This document shows positions 4,514 to 23,267 of a stretch of DNA of 48,151 bases, one piece after another; positions within the stretch are counted from its first letter, which is position 1; every line of letters begins with the position of its first letter. The notes below the pieces were generated by a model, which was given only the letters and a program-made list of their open reading frames with translations, did no database searches and had not been told where the DNA came from. Made by a program: the position numbers and the translations under genes. The stretch comes from Actinomycetota bacterium (GTDB lineage: Bacteria > Actinomycetota > Actinomycetes > S36-B12), in contig JAQCEO010000008.1 of NCBI GenBank assembly GCA_027729805.1, positions 1 to 48,151 of the forward strand, given 5' to 3'.

Positions 4514-5785
4514 CTAGTAGACGCGCGCGTACTCGCTTTGCTCCCAATCGGTGACGGCCGTTTCCCAGCGCGACCACTCTTTGCGCTTTAGTCCGACATA
4601 AACCTCGATGATGTCGGGCTCGAAGAATGCCCGAAGTTCAGTGTCAGCCTCAAGTGCATCCAGTGCGTTGGCCAGCGACGATGGCACATGTCGGTCGGTA
4701 TTCGGCTTTTGATCAGCATCCCCAACCTGCGGGTCAGCAAGTGGCATTTTCTCGCGCACGCCGTGCAAGCCGGCGGCAAAAAGTGCAGCGGCCAGCAGAT
4801 GCGGAGATGCCGTTCCGTCAGCCATGCGGTGTTCGACGCGCGTGCCTTCGCCGCGCTGCCCGGGCACCCGCACGGTGCAGATCCTGTTGTCCAAACCCCA
4901 GTTGGCCCAGTAACCACTGAGCATGCCGGGGGTGAGTCGCTTATATGAGTTGACGGTAGGCGCGGCAAATGCGGCGAGGGCTTCATGGTGATGAAGTAGG
5001 CCCGCAATGAAATGCCGCGATAGCGCTGAGATGCCGTGCTGATCACCGGCGTCAATGAAGGCATTGCGGCCGGCTACGTCAGTCAAGCTCATATTTAGGT
5101 GTAAGCCGCTACCAACCGCATCACCAAATGGTCGGGCCATAAAGGTGGTGTCGATACCGCGTGATGTTGCGATTTGCCTAACGAGTTCACGGAAGAGTGA
5201 CGCATTATCGGCGGCGGTAAGAGCTGGCTGGTAATGCAATGCCGCTTCTACCTGGCTGGGTGTGAACTCACTGTTGACGCCCTCGACCTGCAGCCCGGCG
5301 CGCTCTGCGGCGGCCGCAATTACTTCGAGGGTGCCGGTGGGGTCGGCGCCGGGACCGATGCCATAAACCCGGTGGTCGGGTACATCCAACTTAACCAATG
5401 GCTTACGTGAGCGGAGCAGGAAGAATTCCAGCTCGAACCCGGCAATTGGCTCAAGACCGAGGGCGCGCCACTGGTCACATATCCTTGCAAGCTGCCGCCT
5501 GGAATCCAGGGGGAGATCGCGACCGTCGGCGCGGTGCAGGTGCGCAAGGCCAATTCGCCGATCCCCGAGCCAAGGCCGCACCGTTTCATGGTCAAGTCTT
5601 GCTTCCATATCGGGGAACCCAGCACTTGTCGAATAGGTGTCGGTGTCCAAAAACTCAAGGTCAAGGCCCTGCACCATGACTGTGATCGCGTAATGGGTCG
5701 GGTGATCAGCACGATGGCTGGGCACCGTCTTGCCGTGCAACAGTCCGAGCAAATCAGGGAAGACCACATCAATTTGATCGGTCAC
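4514..5785 (-). CDS. Glutamine-synthetase-like gamma-glutamyl ligase (copy 1)
   Basis: This 423-residue protein of the GS family (PuuA/GlnA3-like) is expected to use ATP to join glutamate to an amine, not to ammonia. The GS catalytic core is present: the Glu-bearing FELEFF strand, NSEFTPSQVEAALHY, GSGLHLNMSL with the catalytic His, PTVNSYKRL, and RVEHRMADG with the substrate/ATP Arg residues. It is shorter than GlnA (about 470) and has no adenylylation-loop Tyr that I recognise. Its GTG start overlaps the previous stop (GTGA, 5782-5785), so it is the last gene of a minus-strand operon with the NicX-like and hydrolase genes. The amine substrate is unknown. Confidence 0.88.
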   Translation of the reverse strand: MTDQIDVVFPDLLGLLHGKTVPSHRADHPTHYAITVMVQGLDLEFLDTDTYSTSAGFPDMEARLDHETVRPWLGDRRIGLAHLHRADGRDLPLDSRRQLARICDQWRALGLEPIAGFELEFFLLRSRKPLVKLDVPDHRVYGIGPGADPTGTLEVIAAAAERAGLQVEGVNSEFTPSQVEAALHYQPALTAADNASLFRELVRQIATSRGIDTTFMARPFGDAVGSGLHLNMSLTDVAGRNAFIDAGDQHGISALSRHFIAGLLHHHEALAAFAAPTVNSYKRLTPGMLSGYWANWGLDNRICTVRVPGQRGEGTRVEHRMADGTASPHLLAAALFAAGLHGVREKMPLADPQVGDADQKPNTDRHVPSSLANALDALEADTELRAFFEPDIIEVYVGLKRKEWSRWETAVTDWEQSEYARVY

Positions 5786-6843
5786 GCTTTAGCGCCCTTC
5801 TTCGCGATTCCGCTCAGCGCACCCGCAGCGACCACTTGGTGATCGTCAAGATAAACATTGCAATTGCGCATCGGGATATCAAAGTGGCAAACACTGAACC
5901 TTTCGGCGTTCTCGTTGGCTCCAGTGCTGTACATGAAGTTGCCCTCGAAAGCCCTAGCCTCGGTGCCGTTGTGCTGGGCGCGATCGTACAACTCGAGGTA
6001 ATCCCAACGGGCCGCTGGGTTCATTCCCCAACCAACATGCGAGGTCGCGTATGCATCCTTATCGAAGGCTGACATGTACGACTTCAGCATGTCGGTTTGA
6101 TAACCGCTACCCGCAATATCGACCACGTAATCGTCTTCGATTGTGAAAGTGATTGGCGACTGCACATAGTGCTTGAAGGTCAGATTGACGTCGCCGGGTG
6201 CAAGGACCACGGTGCCGTTAACCCGGTTGCGGCCGGGGAAGGCAAGTACGAGCCCACCGGGCCAGTGCGCTATTGATCCAGGGCCGCTGACCACACCGGT
6301 AGAGCCGGCGGTGAACGCGTCCGCAAGTTCGACTGTGAGGTCAGTTCCAGCATCGCTGGTGGCGCGCATGATCTTCGAGCGAGTCATGAGATCGTGCGCC
6401 TCGGTGATGCGTTGGGCAACCTCAGGGTTATGACGTAACCGTTCGTATACCTCGGGGCTTTCATTGCTAATCATGAGAACGCGGCAACCGGCTGCAAGGA
6501 TCGGGCGCAATTCACGTGAGTGCAGCAAGCCTTCTTGGGTGATATCAATGACGAAGGACACCGAAGAAATCGCTGTCACTGCTGCTGACATTCCACCGAG
6601 TGCGAGTGAAGTCCCCGTGGACCGAAGCGCGACCGGCCCTTCATTGGCCGGGCTGCGCATGACAATCTCGAAGGGGCGGGCACCTAGTGACTCCGCTGCT
6701 AATACCGCAGTAGCCACCAACTCGGGTCGGCTTGAACTTTCAGAGAGCACCACGCATTCGTCACCGGCACCGAGCCCGGACAATTTGAATTGATCGGCAA
6801 AACGCGAGATCCAGCGCCATTCACTCGGGGCGTGACGGCTCAT
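5782..6843 (-). CDS. NicX-like protein (2,5-dihydroxypyridine dioxygenase / M29-like fold)
   Basis: This 353-residue protein resembles the NicX family, Fe(II) ring-cleaving dioxygenases structurally related to M29 aminopeptidases. Possible metal ligands are the His in TSHVGWGMNP and the His and Asp of CHFDIP, which fit the H...HxD pattern described for NicX. The FPGRNRVNGTVVLAPGD segment is the conserved beta core. I start it at ATG 6843, which overlaps the hydrolase stop (ATGA). With an alpha/beta hydrolase before it and a gamma-glutamyl ligase after it, a role in opening an N-containing ring or hydrolysing an amide is plausible. It may instead be a peptidase-like hydrolase. Confidence 0.65.
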   Translation of the reverse strand: MSRHAPSEWRWISRFADQFKLSGLGAGDECVVLSESSSRPELVATAVLAAESLGARPFEIVMRSPANEGPVALRSTGTSLALGGMSAAVTAISSVSFVIDITQEGLLHSRELRPILAAGCRVLMISNESPEVYERLRHNPEVAQRITEAHDLMTRSKIMRATSDAGTDLTVELADAFTAGSTGVVSGPGSIAHWPGGLVLAFPGRNRVNGTVVLAPGDVNLTFKHYVQSPITFTIEDDYVVDIAGSGYQTDMLKSYMSAFDKDAYATSHVGWGMNPAARWDYLELYDRAQHNGTEARAFEGNFMYSTGANENAERFSVCHFDIPMRNCNVYLDDHQVVAAGALSGIAKKGAKA

Positions 6844-7649
6844 ATCCGCTCCCAATGTTGAGCGATTACTGCATTGACTTCGGTTGGCGCTTCCAGATTG
6901 AGTAGGTGTCCGGCACCGTCGATAATTGCCAGGCGGGCACCAGGGATCCCATCGACGATGGCCTGACCATACGCGGGCGGGGTCTCGGTGTCATGCGCTC
7001 CGACTAGAACAACCGTCGGTGCCGTGATGCCCGACAAAATGGCCCTCGAATCATGCGCCACGATGGTTTCAAGCGCCGTGAGTAGGCCGGCCATCGGGAT
7101 CCGTGCCATTGACTCGATTGCCTCCGGCACCACGTGCGCACCACCGGGACCGGCCAAGCTGGGCAAAATAAATGGTGCGGCGGCACCGGGTGAGCCAGCG
7201 GTGTCAAGGCCTGCGAGTCGAGCGGCGCGCCACTGGACCGGGTCGGTGCCATCAAGTCCGAACTTCGGACTCGTGCACAACAAGGTCAAGGTGCGAACGA
7301 GTTGCGGATAAGTAGCGGCTACGTACTGCGCGATCATCCCACCGAAGGACATGCCGACTAAGTCAACCGGTGCACCGGGTGAGACTTCCGCGACTAGCTC
7401 AGCAGCCCGCTTGGCATAAGCGCTAAAAGTCGGCTCATCGACCGGAGCCGAAGCCCCGTAGCCGGGAGCGTCCCAAGCCACGCATCGGCGCAGGTCAGCG
7501 AGCTCGGCCAGTTGCGGCCGCCAGCCGGTGCGGCCACTGCCGAGTCCGTGCAAGAAGACGGCAACCGGGCCGCTACCGGCCTCGCGCCACGCGGTGGGGA
7601 GGTTGTCGACGTCCACGGGAATTTCCATCTCTAGGTCATCCTCGCGCAT
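6840..7649 (-). CDS. Alpha/beta hydrolase (enol-lactonase / NicD-like)
   Basis: This 269-residue alpha/beta-hydrolase has the oxyanion segment FLHGLGSGRTGW, nucleophile elbow GMSFGG (Ser), acid in VGAHDTETP (Asp) and GAGHLLNLE (His). It resembles 3-oxoadipate enol-lactonases (PcaD) and N-formylmaleamate deformylase (NicD). The latter acts right after NicX in nicotinate breakdown, and the gene order hydrolase then NicX-like is suggestive. I keep ATG 7649 because a promoter with -10 CTAGGT (7657-7662) ends seven bases before it, implying a leaderless mRNA. ATG 7628 is an alternative. First gene of the minus-strand operon. Confidence 0.8.
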   Translation of the reverse strand: MREDDLEMEIPVDVDNLPTAWREAGSGPVAVFLHGLGSGRTGWRPQLAELADLRRCVAWDAPGYGASAPVDEPTFSAYAKRAAELVAEVSPGAPVDLVGMSFGGMIAQYVAATYPQLVRTLTLLCTSPKFGLDGTDPVQWRAARLAGLDTAGSPGAAAPFILPSLAGPGGAHVVPEAIESMARIPMAGLLTALETIVAHDSRAILSGITAPTVVLVGAHDTETPPAYGQAIVDGIPGARLAIIDGAGHLLNLEAPTEVNAVIAQHWERI

Positions 7650-7696: not shown

Positions 7697-7724
7697 AATT
7701 GGGTTTGTGCCCTATTCTTTGTCC
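7691..7724 (+). promoter_or_regulatory. Promoter of the acyl-CoA-dehydrogenase-like gene (leaderless)
   Basis: -35 TTGACA (7691-7696), 16-base spacer, -10 TATTCT (7713-7718), then six bases to ATG 7725. Transcription would start at or next to the A of the ATG, so the mRNA should be leaderless; no ribosome site is present. Confidence 0.7.
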
Positions 7725-8969
7725 ATGTCCACAATTTCAACAATCGCCCCCCATGAGGGTGCCAGCGCCGCCACCGGAGCACCAAGTTCGGCTCCGTCCA
7801 ACCTGACTCGGGATCAGATGGTTGCCACCATCGCCGAACTGGGGCCAAGGTTTGCCGAACGGGCATTTGCCGTGGATCGAGATGCCGTCTTCCCCTTCGA
7901 GAATTTCGCTGACCTACGCGATGCCGGCTTCTTGGCACTGTGCGTGCCAAAGGAATACGGCGGCATGGGGGCCACCTACTCGGACTACGTGCGAGTATCG
8001 GAGGAGATTGGGCGACACTGCGGCGCAACCGCGCTGACATTTAATATGCATAACGCGACGATGCTGTGGGCCGGTCAGGTCAGCGATCTACTTGAGATGA
8101 GCACTGAGCAACGCGCGATCCATGAGCGGCGTCGTGCGCGCATGTTCCGCGATGTTGTTGAGAACCACATAATCCACTCCCAACCTTTCAGCGAGGGGCT
8201 AAACCCCAACGCACTTGCAGGTGTAGCGACCACGGCTGTGCCTGTGGAGGGTGGCGGATACCGCGTAACCGGGCGGAAGATCTTCGCATCGTTAAGTGGC
8301 GCGGCAAACAGGTACAACGTCACCTGCCAGGTGCCCGGCGAGGACTTCCTGCGCTTACTCTCGGTGCACACCGATGCCGAAGGTGTCGAGATCGTCGACG
8401 ACTGGGATCCACTTGGCATGCGTGGCACGGTTTCGCGCACCTTGCTCCTGAAGGATGTTTATGTTGATGCCGAGGATGAAGTGCTGCCCGGTGGTCTGTA
8501 CGACCAAGCCGCGAATCGATACCCGTTCCTCTTCATGTCCTTAGCGCCATCATATTTGGGTGTAACCAAAGGAATTCTTGATTTCACCCACCTTTATCTG
8601 CGCGGTGAACTTGCAGGGGCAGCCAAAGGTACGGGTCGTCGCGACAACCCAATCAAGCAGATTGGCTGGGCGGAAATGCAGATCAAGTTCGAACAAAGTC
8701 GCGCGCTGCTTTACAGCGCCGTCGACAGCGCGGTACTTGATCCAGATGAGTCAAAGATGATTTCGGCTTGGGCCGCGGTGTACACCACCATGGAGACGGC
8801 AAACGATGTAGCGCGGCTGGCGGTTCGAGTTTGTGGTGGTCAATCCATGCTTAAGCACCTAGCCCTAGAGCGCATGTACAGAGACTCCCGGCTAGGTTCA
8901 ACCATGCTCCCGTGGAGCGCCGAGGTGGCTTTGGAGCGCATTGGCAAGGCCCGGCTTTACGAAAACTAG
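7725..8969 (+). CDS. Acyl-CoA dehydrogenase-fold flavoprotein
   Basis: The 414-residue protein starts at ATG 7725 at the end of a clear promoter. It has the acyl-CoA dehydrogenase layout: N-terminal helices with GFLALCVPKEYGG, a middle beta domain (GYRVTGRKIFASLSGAA, then DDWDPLGMRGTVSRTL), and C-terminal helices with RVCGGQSMLKHLALERMYRD. The tail lacks the usual YEGT segment. The fold is shared with group D flavin monooxygenases (DszC/SfnC type), so hydroxylation is as possible as alpha,beta-dehydrogenation. It heads the plus-strand run that includes the permease and CoA ligase. Confidence 0.85.
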   Translation: MSTISTIAPHEGASAATGAPSSAPSNLTRDQMVATIAELGPRFAERAFAVDRDAVFPFENFADLRDAGFLALCVPKEYGGMGATYSDYVRVSEEIGRHCGATALTFNMHNATMLWAGQVSDLLEMSTEQRAIHERRRARMFRDVVENHIIHSQPFSEGLNPNALAGVATTAVPVEGGGYRVTGRKIFASLSGAANRYNVTCQVPGEDFLRLLSVHTDAEGVEIVDDWDPLGMRGTVSRTLLLKDVYVDAEDEVLPGGLYDQAANRYPFLFMSLAPSYLGVTKGILDFTHLYLRGELAGAAKGTGRRDNPIKQIGWAEMQIKFEQSRALLYSAVDSAVLDPDESKMISAWAAVYTTMETANDVARLAVRVCGGQSMLKHLALERMYRDSRLGSTMLPWSAEVALERIGKARLYEN

Positions 8970-9080
8970 GAAAAAATTCAGAAAACGCAGCCATGTCGCT
9001 TGACTCAGCAACCCGCAAGCCCAAAGATCAGTATATCGTTCGGCCCCGTATGACCGAATGCGGACATCATCGGAGGAAAC

Positions 9081-10622
9081 ATGTCCCAAAGAGATAACCT
9101 GCCGGAATCTGATAAGCATCTCGGTGCTGGCGACCCAGAGGCCAAGCAGACGAGTTTGAGGAAGGGCACCCTCGGACTCTGGGGAATCGTCTTCTTCGTC
9201 GTCGCCGCAGCTGCACCGCTGGCGGGAATGACGGGTGCGTTCCCGGTCGCCATCGGCATTGGTGACGGCGCAGGTGCGGCCGGCATGTACCTCGCCGTTG
9301 GCATCGTGCTGCTGCTCTTCAGTGTCGGCTACGCCACCATGAGCCAGTACGTCACCAACACCGGCGCCTTCTTTGCATACGTGGGCCGCGGGTTGGGCAT
9401 CGTGCCAGGTGTGGGATCCGCATTTGCGTCACTGGTTGCTTACCTCACGGTGCAGTGGGCGATCATCGGTTTCATCGCCGCTCAGATGAAGTTCCAGTTT
9501 GAGGCCAAGTTCGGCATATCGCTCGAGTGGTGGATCTACGCGATCGTCATCGTCGTGCTTATCTGGGCACTCTCAGTGGCATCGGTCGAGATCGGCGCCA
9601 AGGTTCTCGGCGTGCTGCTCACTGTCGAAGTTCTCGCCCTGCTCATCGTCGGCATCGCCTCACTCGCCGACGGCGGACCCGAGGGTGTCAACGTGGCTGC
9701 CTCGTTCAGCCCCGCAGCGATTATGGAGGGCGGTCTTACCGGCGGCGCGGGTATCGCCTTCGCGTTCGCCCTCGCATCCTTCATCGGCTTCGAGGCCACC
9801 GCGATCTACGGCGAGGAGTCCAAGGACCCCAAGCGCACGGTCCCCCGGGCCACCTATATCTCGGTCATCGCGATCACCGCGCTGTTCGCGATCGTCGGCT
9901 TCGGTCTGGTCACCTACCTCGGCGCCACGGACATTCAGAACAAGGTCTTCGAGATCACCGCGATCGACGGTGTTCCGCTGTCGGATCCGTCAGCGGTGCT
10001 GTTCGGTGCTGCCACCGATCTCGTGGGCGTATGGCTCGCAGATGTCTTCTCATGGGTCGTCATTACCTCGCTCTTCGCAGGTGGCTTGGCGATGCAGAAC
10101 TCCGCAGCCCGCTACTTCTTCGCGATGGGGCGCTCGGGTGTGCTGCCGAAGGCGCTGGATCGCACCAACAAGTTCCAGGCGCCGCATGTCTCCACCAGCC
10201 TCGTCACGGTGTTCGCTCTGCTCCTGATCATCGTGGGCATCATCTTCGCCTGGGATCCGATCCTGAACATCTTCTACTGGTTCGGCGGCGTGGCTGTCAT
10301 CGCGATCGTTCTGACGGAGATCCTCGTCAGCATTTCGGTGATCGTCTACTTCCAACGCACCAAGGAGGACACCCGGATTTGGCACACCAAGATCGCACCG
10401 GTCCTCGCGATCATCGGCCTCGCGGTCGGTGAGTACATGCTCATGAGCCGGTTCAACCTCTTCTCGGGCACTGCCTCGGGTGAGGGTGGCCCATGGGAGA
10501 TGAACGCGACCGGCTGGATTCTCGTCCTGTCGCCGTTCGTGCTCTTCGTGGTGGGCCTAATTGTGGGCGCACTGCGCAAGAAGAGCGAGAACTACGACGC
10601 GGTGCGAAACTTCGTTAGCTAA
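9081..10622 (+). CDS. APC-family amino acid/amine permease
   Basis: A 513-residue, very hydrophobic protein with about 12 membrane helices. The N-terminal LGLWGIVFFVVAAAAPLAGM and the helix segment FIGFEATAIYGEESKDPKRTVPRA (split: FIGFEA...YGEESKDP) are hallmarks of the amino acid-polyamine-organocation family. GGAGG stands four bases before the ATG. In this position it resembles PuuP-type importers and probably brings the amine or amino acid substrate of the island into the cell. Third codon positions are more strongly G/C than in the neighbours, and two long overlapping frames (9499-10227, 9527-10432) stay open because of this. The gene may have arrived separately. Confidence 0.9.
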   Translation: MSQRDNLPESDKHLGAGDPEAKQTSLRKGTLGLWGIVFFVVAAAAPLAGMTGAFPVAIGIGDGAGAAGMYLAVGIVLLLFSVGYATMSQYVTNTGAFFAYVGRGLGIVPGVGSAFASLVAYLTVQWAIIGFIAAQMKFQFEAKFGISLEWWIYAIVIVVLIWALSVASVEIGAKVLGVLLTVEVLALLIVGIASLADGGPEGVNVAASFSPAAIMEGGLTGGAGIAFAFALASFIGFEATAIYGEESKDPKRTVPRATYISVIAITALFAIVGFGLVTYLGATDIQNKVFEITAIDGVPLSDPSAVLFGAATDLVGVWLADVFSWVVITSLFAGGLAMQNSAARYFFAMGRSGVLPKALDRTNKFQAPHVSTSLVTVFALLLIIVGIIFAWDPILNIFYWFGGVAVIAIVLTEILVSISVIVYFQRTKEDTRIWHTKIAPVLAIIGLAVGEYMLMSRFNLFSGTASGEGGPWEMNATGWILVLSPFVLFVVGLIVGALRKKSENYDAVRNFVS

Positions 10623-14963: not shown

Positions 14964-14979
14964 CTGAGATGGAGGTTTG

Positions 14980-16329
14980 ATGTCCGGCTGGGATGCGTCT
15001 GAGCGCGACCGTATTACTGCGCTCTGCGAGGAGTATCAGATTCACACGGTGGAGTGCGTGATCGTTGATACCTGGGGCATCCCGCGCGGAAAGCGAATCC
15101 CGGTCCGTCAGTTCCTGCGGGGCTCGGGGTACGCGATCGCCAATGTCGTCTACAGCTGGGATCCAACTTGCTTCATCTTCGCCACCCCTTGGGTAGATGA
15201 GGAGGATGGCTTTCCCGATATGCATGCTGTGCCGGATCTGTCGAGTTTTCGGGTGGCCGGCTGGGCCGATGGCGTGGCCATCGTCATGTGCGACACCGTG
15301 CACCCGGGTACCAATACGCCAACCCAGATGGACGCTCGCAACATGCTCAAGAAGCAATTGGCGAAGTTTGCGGCGGTCGGATTTGCGGTGAATGGCGCTA
15401 CCGAACTTGAGTGCCATTTCTTCAATTGTGAGTGGGAGCCGTTGTATGACGACATAAACTGCTACTCGATCGCACGTGGTGCTGAGATGAATTACTTCAT
15501 GTTCGACATTTGCGAATCCCTGCGCAAGACCGGTATTGAAGTTGAGGCCTGGAACGTGGAATATGGTCCGGGCCAGACCGAGATTAATCTGCGGTACGGG
15601 CCACTTCTTGAAATGGCGGATGCGACTGTCTATTTCAAGTACATAGTGCGCACGGTTGCCAAGAGACATGGAATAAACACGACTTTTATGGCTAAACCCT
15701 TTCTCCAAGAAGCCGGTAACGGAATGCACATACATCAGTCACTTGAGCGTGATGGTGTCAATGCGTTTGCGCTAGCTGATGAGGATTCGATTGTTGGTAA
15801 CTCGTTGATGCGCAAGTACCTAACCGGGCTGTTGAAACACCATATGGAATTGCAGTTGGTGATGACCCCGACAGTCAGCGGTTACAAGCGCTTGCAGGAC
15901 TACTCCTTCTCGCCGACCCAGGTCACCTGGGGCCTTGATCACCGGTTGGTCGGTGTTCGGTCCATCACTGGAGCGGGCGCTGCCAACCGACTTGAGTCCC
16001 GCTGGGCGGCGGCTGACGCTAACCCGTACCTAGTGTTGGCCGGGTGTCTGGCGGCCGGCATGGACGGGCTGGAAAATGATTACGTCTTGATGGACCAAGT
16101 TACTGGCGACCCGCATGCAGATGAAAAATGGCAACGGCTGCCAACTGATCTTTATGGTGCGATAGACAATTTCGATAGTGACTTCACCCGCAGCACCTAT
16201 GGGGATGTGTTCGTCGATAACTTTGTCTTCATGCAGCGCCGGGAGGCTGCCGAGTTCGCGGAGCACGGGCAGGGACCGCAGGATCAGGTAAGTGAGTGGG
16301 AGATCAAACGCTATCGAGGGGTTATCTAG
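14980..16329 (+). CDS. Glutamine-synthetase-like gamma-glutamyl ligase (copy 2, AtdA1-like position)
   Basis: I choose ATG 14980 (GGAGG four bases before) over TTG 14977. The 449-residue protein has the GS core: GATELECHFF, NVEYGPGQTEINLRYG, GNGMHIHQSL, TPTVSGYKRL and RLESRWAAADANPYL. The gene directly behind it, with zero bases between, encodes a class-I amidotransferase-fold protein. The same pair, ligase then gamma-glutamyl hydrolase, occurs in aniline operons (AtdA1-AtdA2), where aniline is carried as gamma-glutamylanilide. The window has no Rieske aniline dioxygenase, so the oxygenase step would fall to the P450 or a flavoprotein. Substrate unknown. Confidence 0.88.
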   Translation: MSGWDASERDRITALCEEYQIHTVECVIVDTWGIPRGKRIPVRQFLRGSGYAIANVVYSWDPTCFIFATPWVDEEDGFPDMHAVPDLSSFRVAGWADGVAIVMCDTVHPGTNTPTQMDARNMLKKQLAKFAAVGFAVNGATELECHFFNCEWEPLYDDINCYSIARGAEMNYFMFDICESLRKTGIEVEAWNVEYGPGQTEINLRYGPLLEMADATVYFKYIVRTVAKRHGINTTFMAKPFLQEAGNGMHIHQSLERDGVNAFALADEDSIVGNSLMRKYLTGLLKHHMELQLVMTPTVSGYKRLQDYSFSPTQVTWGLDHRLVGVRSITGAGAANRLESRWAAADANPYLVLAGCLAAGMDGLENDYVLMDQVTGDPHADEKWQRLPTDLYGAIDNFDSDFTRSTYGDVFVDNFVFMQRREAAEFAEHGQGPQDQVSEWEIKRYRGVI

Positions 16330-17049
16330 ATGGCGCGAGTGCTCCTAATCAGCCATGAGCCCGAAGCTGCTCCAGGAATGATCGGCGAACTATTGACCCT
16401 ACGCGGCGTCGAGACACACCAACACATAGTGCTTGCTGATCCGGCGGAGCCCAATCTTGACTTCCCCGACCCAGGTGAGTACGACGCGGTGATCGCTTTC
16501 GGTTCCTTCGCTAATGCCTACGAGGCATCGGCCCGCGCGTGGGTGGGCCCGGAGATCGAGCACATTGCGAAACTTGTGGACCAGGACATTCCATATCTGG
16601 GTGTCTGCTTTGGTGGCCAACTCCTTGCCGAAGCCCTCGGCGGCCAGGTCGAGCCGGCGCCGGTGGGTGAGGCTGAGATTGGGCTTATTTACTTGGATTC
16701 AGGAGCCGAAGTTTTGCCTATTCCGGCCGGGCCTTGGTTCACTTGGCATGAGGATCGCATGATCATCCCCGATACCGCCCAGTTGTTGGCAAGCACGCCA
16801 AGTGCCGTTCAACTATTTCGATCCGGCCGGGCGGTGGGAACCCAATTCCATCCCGAGGCTGATCTTGGGCTGGTAAGTGGCTGGGCGGCTATCGGTCCGG
16901 ACCACATACCAAGTCATACGTCGGCGGCTGAAGTCCTCGGGGACATCGGCGAGGCGGGGGCGAAACTTCGAGGAAATTGCGATGCCTTGGTTGAGTGGTT
17001 CATGCAAGATATCGCTGGCATCCAATTACTGGAAGTGGCCCGTGACTGA
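16330..17049 (+). CDS. Class-I glutamine-amidotransferase-like hydrolase (AtdA2-like)
   Basis: The 239-residue protein has the triad of class-I amidotransferases: Cys93 in GVCFGGQ, His174 and Glu176 in QFHPEAD. There is no attached synthetase domain, so it probably acts alone as a hydrolase. ATG follows the ligase TAG directly (16327-16329), so the two are translated together. In analogy to AtdA2 it may remove glutamate from a gamma-glutamyl amide, or release it at the wrong stage. The CoA-transferase start overlaps its last codons. Confidence 0.85.
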   Translation: MARVLLISHEPEAAPGMIGELLTLRGVETHQHIVLADPAEPNLDFPDPGEYDAVIAFGSFANAYEASARAWVGPEIEHIAKLVDQDIPYLGVCFGGQLLAEALGGQVEPAPVGEAEIGLIYLDSGAEVLPIPAGPWFTWHEDRMIIPDTAQLLASTPSAVQLFRSGRAVGTQFHPEADLGLVSGWAAIGPDHIPSHTSAAEVLGDIGEAGAKLRGNCDALVEWFMQDIAGIQLLEVARD

Positions 17050-18202
17050 ATTCTCTGCGCCCCTTGCAGGCATCGTGGTCGTCTCGGTCGAACAGGCAAT
17101 TTCGGCGCCATTCGCTACTCGGCAACTGGCAGATCTGGGTGCCACCGTCATCAAGATTGAGCGCCCTGAGGGTGATTTCGCGCGGCACTACGACTCCTTA
17201 GTCAAAGGCAACTCAGCCTTCTTCGTCTGGGCGAATGTCGGCAAGCAGTCGGTGGCGATAGATCTGCGCAACCCAGATGACGAACGCCTCCTTAAGGCAT
17301 TGATAGCCGGCGCCGATGTGTTTATTCACAATATGTCGCCGGCAGCGGCTAGCGGCCGAGGGATTGATGCTGGCACCTTGCGAGCTGAGTATCCGAACCT
17401 GATTGTGTGTGTGATTTCCGGTTACGGCCCTGATGGACCACGAAGTAATGACAAGGCCTATGACCTAGGGATTCAAGCTGAGGCCGGTGCCTTCTCGGTG
17501 ACGGGCGACGAAGTAATGAGCAAGGTTGGTTTCTCAGTCGCTGATATCGCTGCCGGCATGTATGCGCTGACCAGCGTCCTAGCCGCGATCGTGCGCCGTG
17601 ATCGCACCGGCGAGGGTGCATTGATCCATGTTTCAATGCTTGAGGCGCTAACAGAGTGGCTCTCGGCACCGCTTTATGCGGCGACCTACGGCACCGGGCA
17701 AGTGCCGCGGACTGGCCGTCGACATCATGCGATTGCACCCTATGGAACTTTTGCCTTAAGTGATGGGCGCACGATTTTGATTGCGGTACAAAGTGATGGT
17801 GAGTGGCAGTCTCTGGCAACGCATCTAATGGACGACCCGGGCCTAGGCTTTGATCAGCGATTTGTGACCAACAGTGATCGCCTGGCTAATGTGGTCGAAC
17901 TGGAAGCCTTGATAAGCGCGCGGCTGGCATTGATCTCTGGCGACGAAGCGATGGCACATCTGGCGGCTGGCCGCATTGCGGTCGCCCGGGTCAATGAGCT
18001 ATCGGGGGTTTGGGCGCATGAGCAGTTGCGGGCGCGCGGCCACTTTCACGAGGTACAGACCGAGAATGGTCCGGTCGAACTCCTGGATCCACCATTTGGT
18101 ATCAGCGGGTGGGTGCGCCCACCAAGTTCGGTTCCCGGGCTTAATGAACATGATCCGGAGGTACTTGGAGCCATCATGAATCGCGGGCGGAAAAGGGATT
18201 GA
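17042..18202 (+). CDS. CaiB/BaiF family (class III) CoA-transferase
   Basis: I place the start at GTG 17042, eight bases inside the preceding gene and seven after GGAAG, giving 386 residues, close to the family norm of about 400. The N-terminus (APLAGIVVVSVEQAISAPF, then RQLADLGATVIKIERPEGD) and the catalytic Asp141 in KAYDLGIQAEAG are typical. It would move CoA from an acyl donor to the pathway acid without ATP, complementing the CoA ligase. Same operon as the AtdA1/AtdA2-like pair. Confidence 0.9.
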   Translation: MTEFSAPLAGIVVVSVEQAISAPFATRQLADLGATVIKIERPEGDFARHYDSLVKGNSAFFVWANVGKQSVAIDLRNPDDERLLKALIAGADVFIHNMSPAAASGRGIDAGTLRAEYPNLIVCVISGYGPDGPRSNDKAYDLGIQAEAGAFSVTGDEVMSKVGFSVADIAAGMYALTSVLAAIVRRDRTGEGALIHVSMLEALTEWLSAPLYAATYGTGQVPRTGRRHHAIAPYGTFALSDGRTILIAVQSDGEWQSLATHLMDDPGLGFDQRFVTNSDRLANVVELEALISARLALISGDEAMAHLAAGRIAVARVNELSGVWAHEQLRARGHFHEVQTENGPVELLDPPFGISGWVRPPSSVPGLNEHDPEVLGAIMNRGRKRD

Positions 18203-18235
18203 CACCAGGAATTCAATGGTTCATAGTGCGTACCA

Positions 18236-18958
18236 ATGGACATGAGGCAGTTACAGTCGGTGCGGACGGGTCAAGAGGTGGCGGTCTATCTGCGGGAGCG
18301 CATTGCCTGCGGCGAATGGGGTGTTGGCCACCGGTTACCGGCCCAACGCCAGCTGGCAATTGAGTTGGGGGTTGGCCGGCAGGCCGTGCGCGAGGGGATT
18401 GCTCATCTGGAAGCCGAGGGCTACTTACTAACTCGTCGGGGCGCTCACGGCGGCAGCTTTGTAGCCGAGCCGAGTACCCCAGCTTCAGTTTGGCGGGAAC
18501 TTCTTCGAGAAAACCTGCCGGATATGGAGGAGTTAATCGACTTTCGATCGGCCATCGAGCAGCACATCTGCTCGTTGGCGGCACTGCGGCGCTCGGACTC
18601 GGATTTGCAGGCGATGCGAGATGCGATCGCAGCACTGCCAGATGCCGCGCTAATCAGTGGCGGGTTTTCATACAGTGCCTTTCGTGAAGCCGATGGGGAA
18701 TTCCATGCCGCGGTGTCAGCAGCGGCTCGCAATGAGCGGTTGACCGAATCCTCACGGCGGGCCCGCGCTGAATTGTTCCTGCCGACCGACAATTTGCCCT
18801 ATGAGCAGCGAGTTGAAGTAACCAGGCAGCAACATCACGCCATCTATAAAGCGATTGCTGATGGTGACGCGGTGGCTGCTGCCTTGGCGGCTCGGGCGCA
18901 CATAAACGAAACCCTGCGGAACCTACACGCAATAATTCGAGAGACGGGTGCCTCATGA
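18236..18958 (+). CDS. GntR-family regulator, FadR subfamily
   Basis: The 240-residue protein has an N-terminal winged HTH (about 10-75: YLRERIACGEWGVGHRLPAQ, then LGVGRQAVREGIAHLEAEGYL) and a helical FCD ligand domain with acidic and His residues (ADGEFHAAVS, QQHHAIYKAI, AARAHINETL) that could bind a metal and an organic acid. FadR-type regulators usually repress catabolic genes until a carboxylate inducer binds. It sits mid-operon, its stop overlapping the next start (ATGA). The 17-bp palindrome at 7680 is a candidate target. Confidence 0.88.
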   Translation: MDMRQLQSVRTGQEVAVYLRERIACGEWGVGHRLPAQRQLAIELGVGRQAVREGIAHLEAEGYLLTRRGAHGGSFVAEPSTPASVWRELLRENLPDMEELIDFRSAIEQHICSLAALRRSDSDLQAMRDAIAALPDAALISGGFSYSAFREADGEFHAAVSAAARNERLTESSRRARAELFLPTDNLPYEQRVEVTRQQHHAIYKAIADGDAVAAALAARAHINETLRNLHAIIRETGAS

Positions 18959-19698
18959 CGGCTCCTCTCATCGGGATCACCACGCGGGTAATTGAGGCCA
19001 GTAGTTTGGGGGCTATCCCAAAAGGTATTTATGGTGCGCACCTGTGGGGGGTGTTCGCTGACTATTGCGAGGCGGTGAGTAGCTCAGGCGGCATCCCGGT
19101 AATGATTCCGCGATCAGTGAACCCTGGCGACATCGTTGCGCACCTTGACGGATTACTACTCAGTGGCGGTGAGGATGTTGATCCAAACCGGTACAACATG
19201 GAGCCGGTACCTGAATCCACGCAGCATGACCCGGAGCGCGATGAATTTGAATTTGGATTGGTCTCAGCTGCGATTGAAAGCAGAATCCCGATTCTCGCCA
19301 TCTGTCGCGGCTGCCAGGTGGTAAACGTGGCGCGGGGCGGTACCTTGATCCAGCATCTGCCCGAGGTAGATGGTTTCTCACATGCTGAAACGCAGGAGCA
19401 TCGTTCGGCTCGAAGACACAGCGTCGCGGTTGCTGCGGAGTCGATGCTGAGGGCGGCCCTTGGCGCCGATGTTGATAACGAGGGCAATGCGGCGGTCAAC
19501 AGTTACCACCATCAAGCCATTGATGAACCGGGAAACGGGCTGCGAATTGTGGCCTGGGCGCCAGATGGCACGATCGAGGCCGTTGAATCCGCGCAGGACC
19601 GAGTGCTCGCCGTTCAGTGGCACCCGGAAATGCACTCAGGCGTCGATCCGATTTTCAACTGGCTTATTTCAGAATCGACAAATGGGAGCAGTTCATGA
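18955..19698 (+). CDS. Peptidase C26 gamma-glutamyl hydrolase (PuuD-like)
   Basis: The 247-residue amidotransferase-fold hydrolase has catalytic Cys117 (AICRGCQ), His223 and Glu225 (QWHPEMH), plus the family marks LLSGGEDVDP and HDPERDEFE. PuuD removes glutamate from gamma-glutamyl-GABA at the end of the Puu putrescine route. Start ATG overlaps the regulator stop, and its own stop overlaps the SDR start (ATGA), so regulator, hydrolase, SDR and GS are tightly coupled. The true amide is unknown. Confidence 0.9.
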   Translation: MTAPLIGITTRVIEASSLGAIPKGIYGAHLWGVFADYCEAVSSSGGIPVMIPRSVNPGDIVAHLDGLLLSGGEDVDPNRYNMEPVPESTQHDPERDEFEFGLVSAAIESRIPILAICRGCQVVNVARGGTLIQHLPEVDGFSHAETQEHRSARRHSVAVAAESMLRAALGADVDNEGNAAVNSYHHQAIDEPGNGLRIVAWAPDGTIEAVESAQDRVLAVQWHPEMHSGVDPIFNWLISESTNGSSS

Positions 19699-20456
19699 TC
19701 ATTGACCATCACGGCAAAGTTGCGTTCGTCACCGGTGCTGGCTCAGGTATCGGGCGGGCAATCGCAAGACAACTGGCTGACGATGGAGCATCCGTCGCCT
19801 GCGTCGATATCAAAATGGAACTTGCCGACGCGACAGCGAAGATCATCACTGATGCAGGCGGTTCCGCAGCCGCCTTAGTCGCGGATGTGCGTGATCGAGG
19901 TGCGGTTGAAAAGGCAGTAGCCGACGTCATTGACACCTTTGGGCGACTCGACCTGATCGTCAACAACGCTGGAGTTGTAACGATGTCCGGTCTTGACACC
20001 GTCACCGATGAGGAATGGGATTTTGTTGTCGACATCAACATGAAAGGCCCATTCATCGTGGCTCAGGCTGCGTCTCGGGTCATGCAAAATGGTGGCGCGA
20101 TGGTCAATATGACAACCGTTGAGGCCGAAGTGGTGGTCTCCTCAAGTGGTAATTGTCAGGTGCACTACAACGCGTCCAAGGGTGGCGTAAAGATGCTCAC
20201 CAAAGCTTTGGCCGTTGAGTTGGCAGCCAAGGGCATTCGGGTTAATGCCATTGCACCGGGACCGATCAACACACGCTTTACCGGAGGCGACATCACCGGA
20301 CCGGAGGCCATGGCCTTTATGAGTCAGCGACTATTAGTGCCACGCGTCGGCGAACCTGAAGATATAGCGCGAGCCGCCTCATTCCTGCTTTCGGATGCCG
20401 CATCGTATATAACGGGCACACAACTTGCGGTAGACGGCGGCTGGTTGACCCGATGA
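19695..20456 (+). CDS. Short-chain dehydrogenase/reductase (SDR)
   Basis: I start it at ATG 19695 (GGGAG at 19684-19688, ATGA overlap), giving 253 residues. The classical SDR marks are TGAGSGIG (13-20), NNAG (90-93) and YNASK (Tyr158, Lys162). The catalytic Ser is normally in an N-I-S-S stretch; here it reads NMTT, so Thr may replace it. Likely an NAD(P)-dependent oxidation of a hydroxyl in the gamma-glutamylated intermediate, the step PuuB does in the Puu pathway. Confidence 0.9.
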   Translation: MIIDHHGKVAFVTGAGSGIGRAIARQLADDGASVACVDIKMELADATAKIITDAGGSAAALVADVRDRGAVEKAVADVIDTFGRLDLIVNNAGVVTMSGLDTVTDEEWDFVVDINMKGPFIVAQAASRVMQNGGAMVNMTTVEAEVVVSSSGNCQVHYNASKGGVKMLTKALAVELAAKGIRVNAIAPGPINTRFTGGDITGPEAMAFMSQRLLVPRVGEPEDIARAASFLLSDAASYITGTQLAVDGGWLTR

Positions 20457-21823
20457 AGAATGTGTTGACGATGCAGGATCTGCAAACCGGAGATTTCGAC
20501 ACCGTAATTGTTGCCGCACCTGATATGCATGGACGTCTTATAGGCAAGCGACTGGCGCCGAAGCGGCTGGCCGAGTTCGCGGAGCGTGGTGTCGCGGTGT
20601 CTGCTTGCACATTTGGCTGGGATCTCCCACAAGACATTGGATACCAATCAGCGTATGCAGGTTGGCACACGGGTTGGCGGGATTTTCTGCTGATCCCGGA
20701 TATGGCGACTCTCATCAAGGCGGCGTGGCTCGACGGCACGGCGATCGTGCTAGCCGACATCGTCGAGGAGCACGATCGTTCCCCCGTGGAGATCACCCCT
20801 CGAAGGATCCTCCAACGGCAGGTCGCAGCCCTGGCTGAGCGTGGGTTAGCAGCAGGCGTTGGCACCGAATTAGAGTTTTATCTTTACCGGGAAAGCTACG
20901 ATCAATTAAGGCAAGCGGGGTATCACACACGAACCCCGAGCACCTTGATTCACTCCGACTACACCGTGCAGCAGGTCAACGCTTGGGAGCCATTCTTCCG
21001 GCGCCTGCGCAATGTTTTAGACGACTCCGGGATGAACGTCGAGATGAGCCAAGGTGAGTGGGGCTTGGGCCAATGGGAGATCAACCTCACCTACGGGGAT
21101 GCCTTGGATATGGCGGACCGCCACGTGTTGTTCAAGTTGGCCGTTAAGGATGTTGCAGCGCAGGCCGGCCTGTCGGCTACCTTCCTGCCGAAACCGCAGG
21201 CCGACGGCGTTGGGTCGTCCGGGCATATCCATTTGTCACTTCGCGATCTCGCGGCATCCGGGCCCGCAGCACAAGTAATGTGGTCCCATACGCAGCCCGC
21301 TCACATCAGCAACACGATGCGTCAGGTAATGGGTGGCATCCTCGAAACCGCACCGGATTTGATGGCCTGGTACGCGCCAACCGTTAATTCCTACCGGCGC
21401 ACTAACTCAGGTGATTTCGCCGGCCACGGAGCCACTTGGGCGGTGGATAACCGCACGGTCTCCTGTCGGGTGCTCGGCACCGACCCGGATTCAATGCGAG
21501 TTGAATGGCGGGTTCCAGGCGCCGACATCAACCCTTACCTCGCGATCGCCGGGCTCCTTGCCGCGGTTAGTGATGGCATCGAGCGCGATATTGATCCGGG
21601 CCCGGAGCGCACCGGTGACGCCTATCAGGTGAAGTCGGCCACCGAGCAGTTCCCTAAACATCTGGGCGCCGCTGCGGAGCGCTTTACCGCAAGTGATTTC
21701 ATTATGCGCCACTTTGGGCCTGCGGTTGTCGAGCAGTATGGGTCGGCGGCGGCGTGGGAGTGGGAGTGCTTTCAGCACGCGGTGACGGACTGGGAACTCG
21801 AGCGCTACTTTGAAAATATCTGA
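20453..21823 (+). CDS. Glutamine-synthetase-like gamma-glutamyl ligase (copy 3, PuuA-like)
   Basis: This 456-residue GS-family protein has GTELEFYLYRE, EMSQGEWGLGQWEINLTYG, SSGHIHLSL, APTVNSYRR and RVEWRVPGADINPYL. It is the most PuuA-like of the three ligases in both length and neighbourhood: hydrolase, SDR and aldehyde dehydrogenase flank it. PuuA gamma-glutamylates putrescine, which protects the amine while the other end is oxidised. ATG overlaps the SDR stop. The three GS proteins differ clearly from one another, so they probably serve different amines or steps. Confidence 0.9.
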   Translation: MKNVLTMQDLQTGDFDTVIVAAPDMHGRLIGKRLAPKRLAEFAERGVAVSACTFGWDLPQDIGYQSAYAGWHTGWRDFLLIPDMATLIKAAWLDGTAIVLADIVEEHDRSPVEITPRRILQRQVAALAERGLAAGVGTELEFYLYRESYDQLRQAGYHTRTPSTLIHSDYTVQQVNAWEPFFRRLRNVLDDSGMNVEMSQGEWGLGQWEINLTYGDALDMADRHVLFKLAVKDVAAQAGLSATFLPKPQADGVGSSGHIHLSLRDLAASGPAAQVMWSHTQPAHISNTMRQVMGGILETAPDLMAWYAPTVNSYRRTNSGDFAGHGATWAVDNRTVSCRVLGTDPDSMRVEWRVPGADINPYLAIAGLLAAVSDGIERDIDPGPERTGDAYQVKSATEQFPKHLGAAAERFTASDFIMRHFGPAVVEQYGSAAAWEWECFQHAVTDWELERYFENI

Positions 21824-21824
21824 G

Positions 21825-23267
21825 ATGGAACCCCAACTCGATCTAATCGATGGCGTGCGGTGTCCGCCTAGCCAGACACTGAATATCGAGTTGACCAACC
21901 CGTCCACCGGCGAATTCACCGTGAAAGCGGCGCAAACTGATCCGGCTGAGGTAGATCGTGCCATCGCGGCTGCGGATCAAATCGATAAATTCGGGTCATG
22001 GCGCCTGCTCAGCACTGTCGACCGCGCAACTGCTTTGCTGCGCGTGGCCGATGAGTTAGATCAACGCGGTGATCGCATCGGTGCAGCTGAGTCACTGGGG
22101 TCAGGTGTTGTCATTTCCATCGCACGACTTTTTGGCGGCTCGCTGGCTGGATCCTTCCGAGACGCGGTTGAACAGATGCAAAACGGTGCCTTGGTCGAGG
22201 AGGTCGGCGAAAGCGGACGGCCGGTTGAGATCCTGCGCATACCTTGGGGTCCGACCGCCGTATTGGTGCCGTGGAATGCGCCGGCCGCGATGGCTGCCAA
22301 AAAGTGCGCGTACGCTCTTGCCGCAGGGGCGCCAGTAATTCTCAAGCCCCCGGAGCGGGCACCATTTGGTTGTAATGTCCTCGCCGAAGCCATCGCGGCA
22401 GCTGGCCTGCCCAATGGTGTTTTCCAGATGGTGCATGGTGGTGCTGATGTCGGCGTCCAATTGACGACCGATCCGCGCATTAGGTGTATCTCGTTCACGG
22501 GTTCGGTTACTACGGGTCGGGCGATCGCTATTGCCGCGGCAGCGGATTTCAAGGCAGTCCAACTCGAACTCGGCGGAAACAATCCGGTGATCATTATGCC
22601 CGATGCGGATATCAGCCAAGCAGCAAAAAGTATTGCGACCGGCATGACGAAACTCAATGGGCAGTGGTGTGAAGGGCCGGGCAAAATCTTCGTGCCGCCA
22701 GCCCTTGAGCGCCAACTGGTAAGTGCCCTGCTGGCGGAACTCGAGGGCGTAGTGATCGGGGCCCACGATGATGCGGATGCGGTGATGGGGCCACTTGCAT
22801 ATCAAGAACACCGAGATCAGTTACAGGTGCGGGTAAATGATCTCGTGCACAGCGGCGCGACCGCACAGCAAGTACCGACCGCCCCGGATTTACCCGGGTG
22901 GTTCTGGCCGCCAGTGGTAGTAACCGACGCGCCTGAAGGACTCTGCGTTGATGAGCTATTCGGCCCGGTGGTCACCGTCCACGCCGTCACTTCCATCGAC
23001 GTGGCTATTGACCTCGCCAATGCCTCGCCTTATGGACTAGCCGGGTATGTCTTCGGCACTGATATCGACGCGGCTATGGCGGTGGCCCGCCGTATTAGAT
23101 TCGGTGAGGTGAAAGTCAATGGCACCAGTTTGTTAGACCTTTGCCCACAGTCAGTACAAAGTTTCTGGCGTGGCAGCGGGGTTGGTGGTCATGGTGATAG
23201 GGATGTGTTTCGGTTCTTTTGTGGAGCCCAAATAGTCGGAGTCGACCGGCCGGGTCTGCCGATCTGA
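21825..23267 (+). CDS. NAD(P)-dependent aldehyde dehydrogenase (PuuC-like role)
   Basis: About 480 residues from ATG 21825, one base after the GS stop; TTG 21810 is an alternative overlapping start. The ALDH catalytic set is present: Asn151 (VPWNAP), Lys174 (ILKPPE), the cofactor loop FTGSVTTG, Glu248 (LELGGNNP) and Cys282 (NGQWCEGPGK), followed by DELFGPVV. It should oxidise an aldehyde from the amine route to the acid, as PuuC does for gamma-glutamyl-aminobutyraldehyde. Last plus-strand gene of the operon; it converges on the acyl-CoA dehydrogenase. Confidence 0.92.
   Translation: MEPQLDLIDGVRCPPSQTLNIELTNPSTGEFTVKAAQTDPAEVDRAIAAADQIDKFGSWRLLSTVDRATALLRVADELDQRGDRIGAAESLGSGVVISIARLFGGSLAGSFRDAVEQMQNGALVEEVGESGRPVEILRIPWGPTAVLVPWNAPAAMAAKKCAYALAAGAPVILKPPERAPFGCNVLAEAIAAAGLPNGVFQMVHGGADVGVQLTTDPRIRCISFTGSVTTGRAIAIAAAADFKAVQLELGGNNPVIIMPDADISQAAKSIATGMTKLNGQWCEGPGKIFVPPALERQLVSALLAELEGVVIGAHDDADAVMGPLAYQEHRDQLQVRVNDLVHSGATAQQVPTAPDLPGWFWPPVVVTDAPEGLCVDELFGPVVTVHAVTSIDVAIDLANASPYGLAGYVFGTDIDAAMAVARRIRFGEVKVNGTSLLDLCPQSVQSFWRGSGVGGHGDRDVFRFFCGAQIVGVDRPGLPI

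Follow-up and report, generated by a model that had tools for sequence, protein, structure and literature searches.

A predicted new subfamily of NicX-type dioxygenases linked to gamma-glutamyl ligase genes may belong to an aromatic-amine catabolic module

NicX of Pseudomonas putida KT2440 (PDB 7cn3, 7cup), a 2,5-dihydroxypyridine 5,6-dioxygenase, turns its substrate into N-formylmaleamate and has as partners NicC, the N-formylmaleamate deformylase NicD, NicE and NicF. It has been reported to be selective for a single pyridine and to be a lone type among iron dioxygenases; its iron ligands are H265, S302, H318 and D320, of which S302 is an unusual one, its substrate is bound by H105, E177 and H189, with E177 contacting N1 and O1 of the pyridine ring, and the E177A/H189A enzyme was inactive (PMC7910607). 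In the degradation of aniline and 1-naphthylamine, a glutamine-synthetase-like (GS-like) ligase (AtdA1, NpaA1) forms a gamma-glutamyl amide first, and the ring is oxidised later (PMC11335346). Here we describe a gene for a NicX-like protein that overlaps a GS-like ligase gene in a 48,151-nucleotide stretch of DNA (the window; contig JAQCEO010000008.1 of assembly GCA_027729805.1, positions 1 to 48,151 of the forward strand) from a member of the Actinomycetota (S36-B12), whose genome of 2.03 Mb is 96% complete and has freshwater actinobacterial genomes as its closest relatives. Judged by sequence, this protein and its clade are a distinct new subfamily of NicX-type dioxygenase, as yet uncharacterised, and we see an even chance that the surrounding genes together serve to break down a primary amine with an aromatic or heteroaromatic ring.

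The NicX-like protein is a true relative of NicX within the NicX-type Fe(II) dioxygenase superfamily, with which it shares the fold, homology over the full length, the His/Ser/His/Asp iron site, His105, His189 and Arg293. Its sole strong sequence match in the PDB was NicX (7cn3; phmmer, E 7.8e-57, residues 18-347), the next match not being significant, and an E value near 8e-57 puts this kinship far beyond chance. A predicted structure (AlphaFold, alignment of 15 relatives; pLDDT 65, pTM 0.67) matched NicX 7cn3 (Foldseek E 1e-29, VIA Z 31.4) better than it matched AmpT of the M29 family (Z 17.2), and M29 aminopeptidases scored about 17 or less. The NicX-like label and the overlay on NicX, both put forward in an initial annotation of the window, were thus borne out. 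The gene and the residues aligned with the NicX active site are:

NicX-like gene: 5782-6855, minus strand, predicted non-heme Fe(II) ring-cleavage dioxygenase
H273: 6037-6039, minus strand, aligned with NicX iron ligand H265
S310: 5926-5928, minus strand, aligned with NicX iron ligand S302
HxD motif H324-F-D326 (CHFDIP): 5878-5886, minus strand, aligned with NicX iron ligands H318 and D320
S185: 6301-6303, minus strand, at the position of NicX E177

The HxD motif and an upstream His had initially been proposed as iron ligands; alignment with NicX assigned them as H324, D326 and H273 and added S310, so that all four NicX ligands are retained, and they are conserved, including the His/His/Asp set singled out for checking at the outset, in every complete member of the Ser/Thr clade described below. 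Among the substrate binders, H112, S185 and H197 align with NicX H105, E177 and H189, and Glu177 is the only one lost. Identity as an aminopeptidase of the M29 type, or as a relative without catalytic activity, would be consistent with the related fold (Z 17) and with the name given to homologues in public records, but NicX is a far better match, the Pfam M29 score (PF02073, 17.4 bits) lies below the curated cut-off of 27, the M29 match was absent from the genome search, and the NicX-specific Ser ligand is kept, which makes this identity very improbable. The protein groups with NicX and its iron site is complete, the opposite of the firm M29 grouping without an iron site that the initial annotation had considered. 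The dioxygenase homologues of Ensifer (L022) and Aminobacter (L023) carry the RefSeq label 'peptidase M29', where the sequence evidence points to a NicX-type dioxygenase; homologues so labelled are probably misnamed.

The relatives were sampled as 21 from public genomes, together with the window's own family and phylum and annotated plasmid-borne homologues, and the tree was built without the diagnostic columns. GS-linked NicX-like proteins were separated from those of nicE/nicF-bearing loci by a branch with 100/99 support. Position 177 (NicX numbering) is Ser/Thr throughout the GS-linked clade and Glu/Gln on the nic side, and the GS-linked side, compared with NicX, also has two residues inserted ahead of Leu104-His105 and two deleted after Ser302. 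The Ser/Thr branch was found in Actinomycetota, and some of its members bear the label Acidobacteriota or lie on plasmids of Alphaproteobacteria. Neighbouring genes were called by hidden Markov models on six-frame translations of loci dereplicated at 90% identity, and those within 6 kb were counted, several of the misses lying on short contigs. A GS-like gene was found at 18/23 Ser/Thr loci and at 0/12 Glu/Gln loci, and a flavoprotein of the acyl-CoA-dehydrogenase type at 16 of the 23 compared to none of the 12; NicE or NicF, in turn, was near 9/12 Glu/Gln loci and 0/23 Ser/Thr loci. Divergence of the partner proteins tracked that of the NicX-like protein (Spearman 0.88-0.93). Two deep NicX relatives, L079 and L088, have the iron ligands and Ser177 but lack both nic genes and a GS-like gene in their neighbourhood, and possibly represent further substrate classes. 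Five of the records (L006, L007, L008, L013, L014) are metagenome-assembled genomes titled Bifidobacterium breve; their titles are probably wrong, because the proteins are 78-96% identical to the freshwater actinobacterial set.

The remaining genes considered here are:

Hydrolase: 6840-7649, minus strand, alpha/beta hydrolase of PcaD/esterase type with an S101/D220/H248 triad
GS-like ligase: 4514-5785, minus strand, predicted gamma-glutamyl-amine (GoaS-type) ligase
Flavoprotein: 7707-8969, plus strand, acyl-CoA-dehydrogenase type, predicted flavin-dependent monooxygenase
APC amino-acid/amine permease: 9081-10622, plus strand, Pfam AA_permease, predicted importer
Class-I glutamine amidotransferase-type hydrolase: 16330-17049, plus strand, Pfam GATase, candidate for gamma-glutamate removal
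PuuD-like Peptidase_C26 hydrolase: 18955-19698, plus strand, Pfam Peptidase_C26 (215.8 bits), second candidate for gamma-glutamate removal

On the minus strand, the order is hydrolase (7649-6840), NicX-like (6855-5782) and GS-like (5785-4514). The operon linkage of the NicX-like gene to a gamma-glutamyl ligase is supported by a four-base overlap (GTGA) in the window and by its recurrence in the Ser/Thr loci. The initial description of an operon joined by four-base overlaps throughout holds for the gene order and for this pair; between the hydrolase and NicX-like genes, it holds (ATGA) with an ATG start at 6843, which likely is the true start and gives 353 amino acids, and the overlap is 16 bases with the longest open reading frame (TTG at 6855). 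That description had left out the flavoprotein and permease genes, which diverge from the three minus-strand genes, are followed by AMP-ligase and P450 genes, and are both within the conserved set. APC permeases also occur in L021, L022, L023, L077 and L078, and Ornithinimicrobium (L021) has NicX-like, GS-like, PuuD-type hydrolase, flavin reductase and APC permease genes in a row. In Ensifer, Aminobacter and Sinorhizobium, the adjoining GS-like gene and its actinobacterial counterpart fall on different branches of the GS-like family, so that it seems to be the function, not a single inherited gene pair, that has been kept; the hydrolase in the plasmid loci shows about 32% identity and forms a fusion with another domain. 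The Aminobacter set is preceded by a cupin gene (L023:8245-9363). A second recurring cluster was seen 3' of the GS-like gene in L002, L005, L010, L012 and L061, with genes for TetR, an acetoacetate-decarboxylase-family protein, a luciferase-like monooxygenase, another GS-like protein, GATase and P450, and GS-like genes also lie near genes for acetoacetate-decarboxylase-family proteins and catechol 1,2-dioxygenase on plasmids of Novosphingobium (L074) and Streptomyces lunaelactis (L076).

Because Glu177 is lost and NicE/NicF partners are absent, 2,5-dihydroxypyridine is unlikely as a substrate, and with Ser at this position it should not be gripped as in NicX. The substrate is probably something other than 2,5-dihydroxypyridine, as the initial annotation had thought possible, and it probably either has no pyridone N-H at the Glu177 spot or is a bulkier, glutamylated one. 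The hydrolase had been described as NicD-like, which was not upheld: BLAST comparison with six NicD proteins encoded in nic operons gave no significant match (best E 0.11). The hydrolase matched PcaD and esterase models instead, with a Ser-Asp-His triad present. No gene for NicC, NicE, NicF or a nicotinate hydroxylase adjoins the NicX-like set, and a search with NicE across the 96% complete genome gave no match. The earlier statement that a hydroxylase, NicF and NicE are missing is therefore right beside the locus and, for NicE, across the genome, but other contigs encode one protein with 35% identity to NicF and a single molybdopterin-hydroxylase domain. Alternatively, the enzyme could be a true dioxygenase of 2,5-dihydroxypyridine, within a modified nicotinate or hydroxypyridine pathway that has exchanged its later enzymes. 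In favour of this alternative, the NicX iron ligands, His189 and His105 are all kept and a NicF-like protein is present elsewhere in the genome. We consider it quite improbable, as Glu177, one of the two residues whose exchange left NicX inactive (PMC7910607), is replaced across the clade, no member of which is linked to NicE or NicF, and the hydrolase is not NicD.

The GS-like protein matched Pfam Gln-synt_C with 308.7 bits and fell well under the cut-offs of all glutamine synthetase equivalog models, and the ammonium-site loop FDGSS of glutamine synthetase aligned with VQGLD. The genome holds nine PF00120 matches in its 2.03 Mb, which makes this copy dispensable for ammonium assimilation and glutamine synthesis, and the protein is predicted to be a gamma-glutamyl-amine ligase of the GoaS type. 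The GoaS-type ligases of aniline and 1-naphthylamine degradation (AtdA1/TdnQ, NpaA1) share with it the organic-amine type and the linkage to genes for aromatic-ring oxygenation; those routes use Rieske-type dioxygenases and classical catechol or naphthalene routes, whereas here the partners are a flavoprotein and a NicX-type dioxygenase. By analogy, the probable role of the ligase is to start the pathway by modifying an amine substrate, not to modify a ring-cleavage product. The initial annotation had suggested gamma-glutamylation of a ring-cleavage product, which is less likely given that AtdA1 and NpaA1 act on the starting amine. The corresponding alternative, in which the NicX-like enzyme opens an N-heterocycle first and the ligase then glutamylates an amine or amide product, could be mirrored in the order of the overlapping genes (hydrolase, NicX-like, ligase). 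It is unlikely, because the characterised ligases of the family act on the starting amine (PMC11335346), an amino-acid/amine permease is part of the set, and gene order is not conserved, the ligase following a TetR gene in L022 and L023.

The best PDB matches of the flavoprotein were 5gj7 and 5z8t (E 2e-40), two entries that lack a functional name, and no paper on the function of 5gj7 was found in the open-licence literature. The protein has YRDSRLGSTMLPWS where SCAD has YRDARITEIYEGTSE (ungapped extension of the alignment) and no Glu at what we take to be the SCAD-type catalytic position. It is predicted to be a flavin-dependent monooxygenase, like the two-component enzymes of the HsaA, DszC and IacA-like types, which share the acyl-CoA-dehydrogenase fold, a flavin reductase in many of the related loci and the absence of the SCAD-type catalytic Glu. 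A flavin reductase shares the locus in L015-L023, L063, L064, L077 and L078, as expected for a two-component monooxygenase. An FMN_red-family protein encoded on another contig of the window genome might serve as the reductase here.

The proposed amine-catabolic module would run as follows, with its order drawn from the analogy with aniline and 1-naphthylamine degradation (PMC11335346). The APC permease would import the amine, and the GS-like ligase would attach glutamate to it in an ATP-dependent reaction, giving a gamma-glutamyl amide. The flavoprotein, supplied with reduced flavin by a reductase, would hydroxylate the ring, which the NicX-like Fe(II) enzyme would then open by inserting O2 at its His/Ser/His/Asp iron site; the alpha/beta hydrolase would hydrolyse the ring-opened product, and the class-I amidotransferase or the C26 hydrolase would free the glutamate. 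Genes for such candidate hydrolases also lie near the set in L021 and L072. The Puu pathway (PuuA, PuuD, PuuC) shares a related ligase and C26/GATase hydrolases, and differs in using putrescine as its substrate and in having no ring-cleavage enzyme. Puu-like genes follow further on in the window, where a Puu-like amine island (14977-23267) adjoins the NicX-like set and holds two further GS-like ligases (14977-16329, 20453-21823), GATase, the C26/PuuD-like hydrolase, a CoA-transferase, a short-chain dehydrogenase/reductase, an aldehyde dehydrogenase and a GntR regulator; an IS3-type transposase pair lies at 112-1346, at the window edge and upstream of the island.

The region at 4.5-22 kb of the window contains three GS-like genes along with two amidotransferases, which also allows for two adjoining pathways, one for an amine (GS-like ligases, amidotransferases, permease) and a separate one for ring opening (flavoprotein, NicX-like, hydrolase), and L038 retains the genes for ring opening and has no GS-like gene nearby. 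This, too, is an unlikely explanation, because the core of four genes is found again in distant lineages among different neighbours, the plasmids carry a different GS-like branch, and the genes are consecutive in L021. Several points weigh against a single amine-catabolic module. In L038 and L039, the NicX-like gene has no nearby GS-like gene, so the ligase is either not always required or located elsewhere; no PF01613 flavin reductase was found in the window genome; the Fisher counts of linkage lack phylogenetic independence; the AlphaFold model is modest, with pLDDT <50 around much of the iron site, and too weak for reading the pocket; and the substrate and activity of every clade member rest on inference. 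In L038, from an actinobacterial relative, a two-cupin protein (7996-9072) takes the place of the GS-like gene and adjoins a luciferase-like monooxygenase.

A literature search of open-licence papers, in which absence is not proof, turned up no published pathway that has this set of genes. The enzymes are of known types, their combination appears to match no pathway found, and the gene set appears to be conserved and as yet uncharacterised. Tentatively, and at well below an even chance, the module might be a new aerobic pathway in which the glutamate handle is kept through hydroxylation and opening and a NicX-type enzyme cleaves a gamma-glutamylated, possibly carbocyclic ring. If true, a NicX-type enzyme, so far reported only for 2,5-dihydroxypyridine, would act on a gamma-glutamylated ring. 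The known chemistry of the NicX fold would be widened by a sister subfamily in which the iron site stays the same, the substrate pocket differs and a gamma-glutamyl ligase is a conserved companion. The alphaproteobacterial plasmid relatives make the gene set testable in culture, and the module would point to aromatic amines as a nitrogen and carbon source for freshwater actinobacteria.

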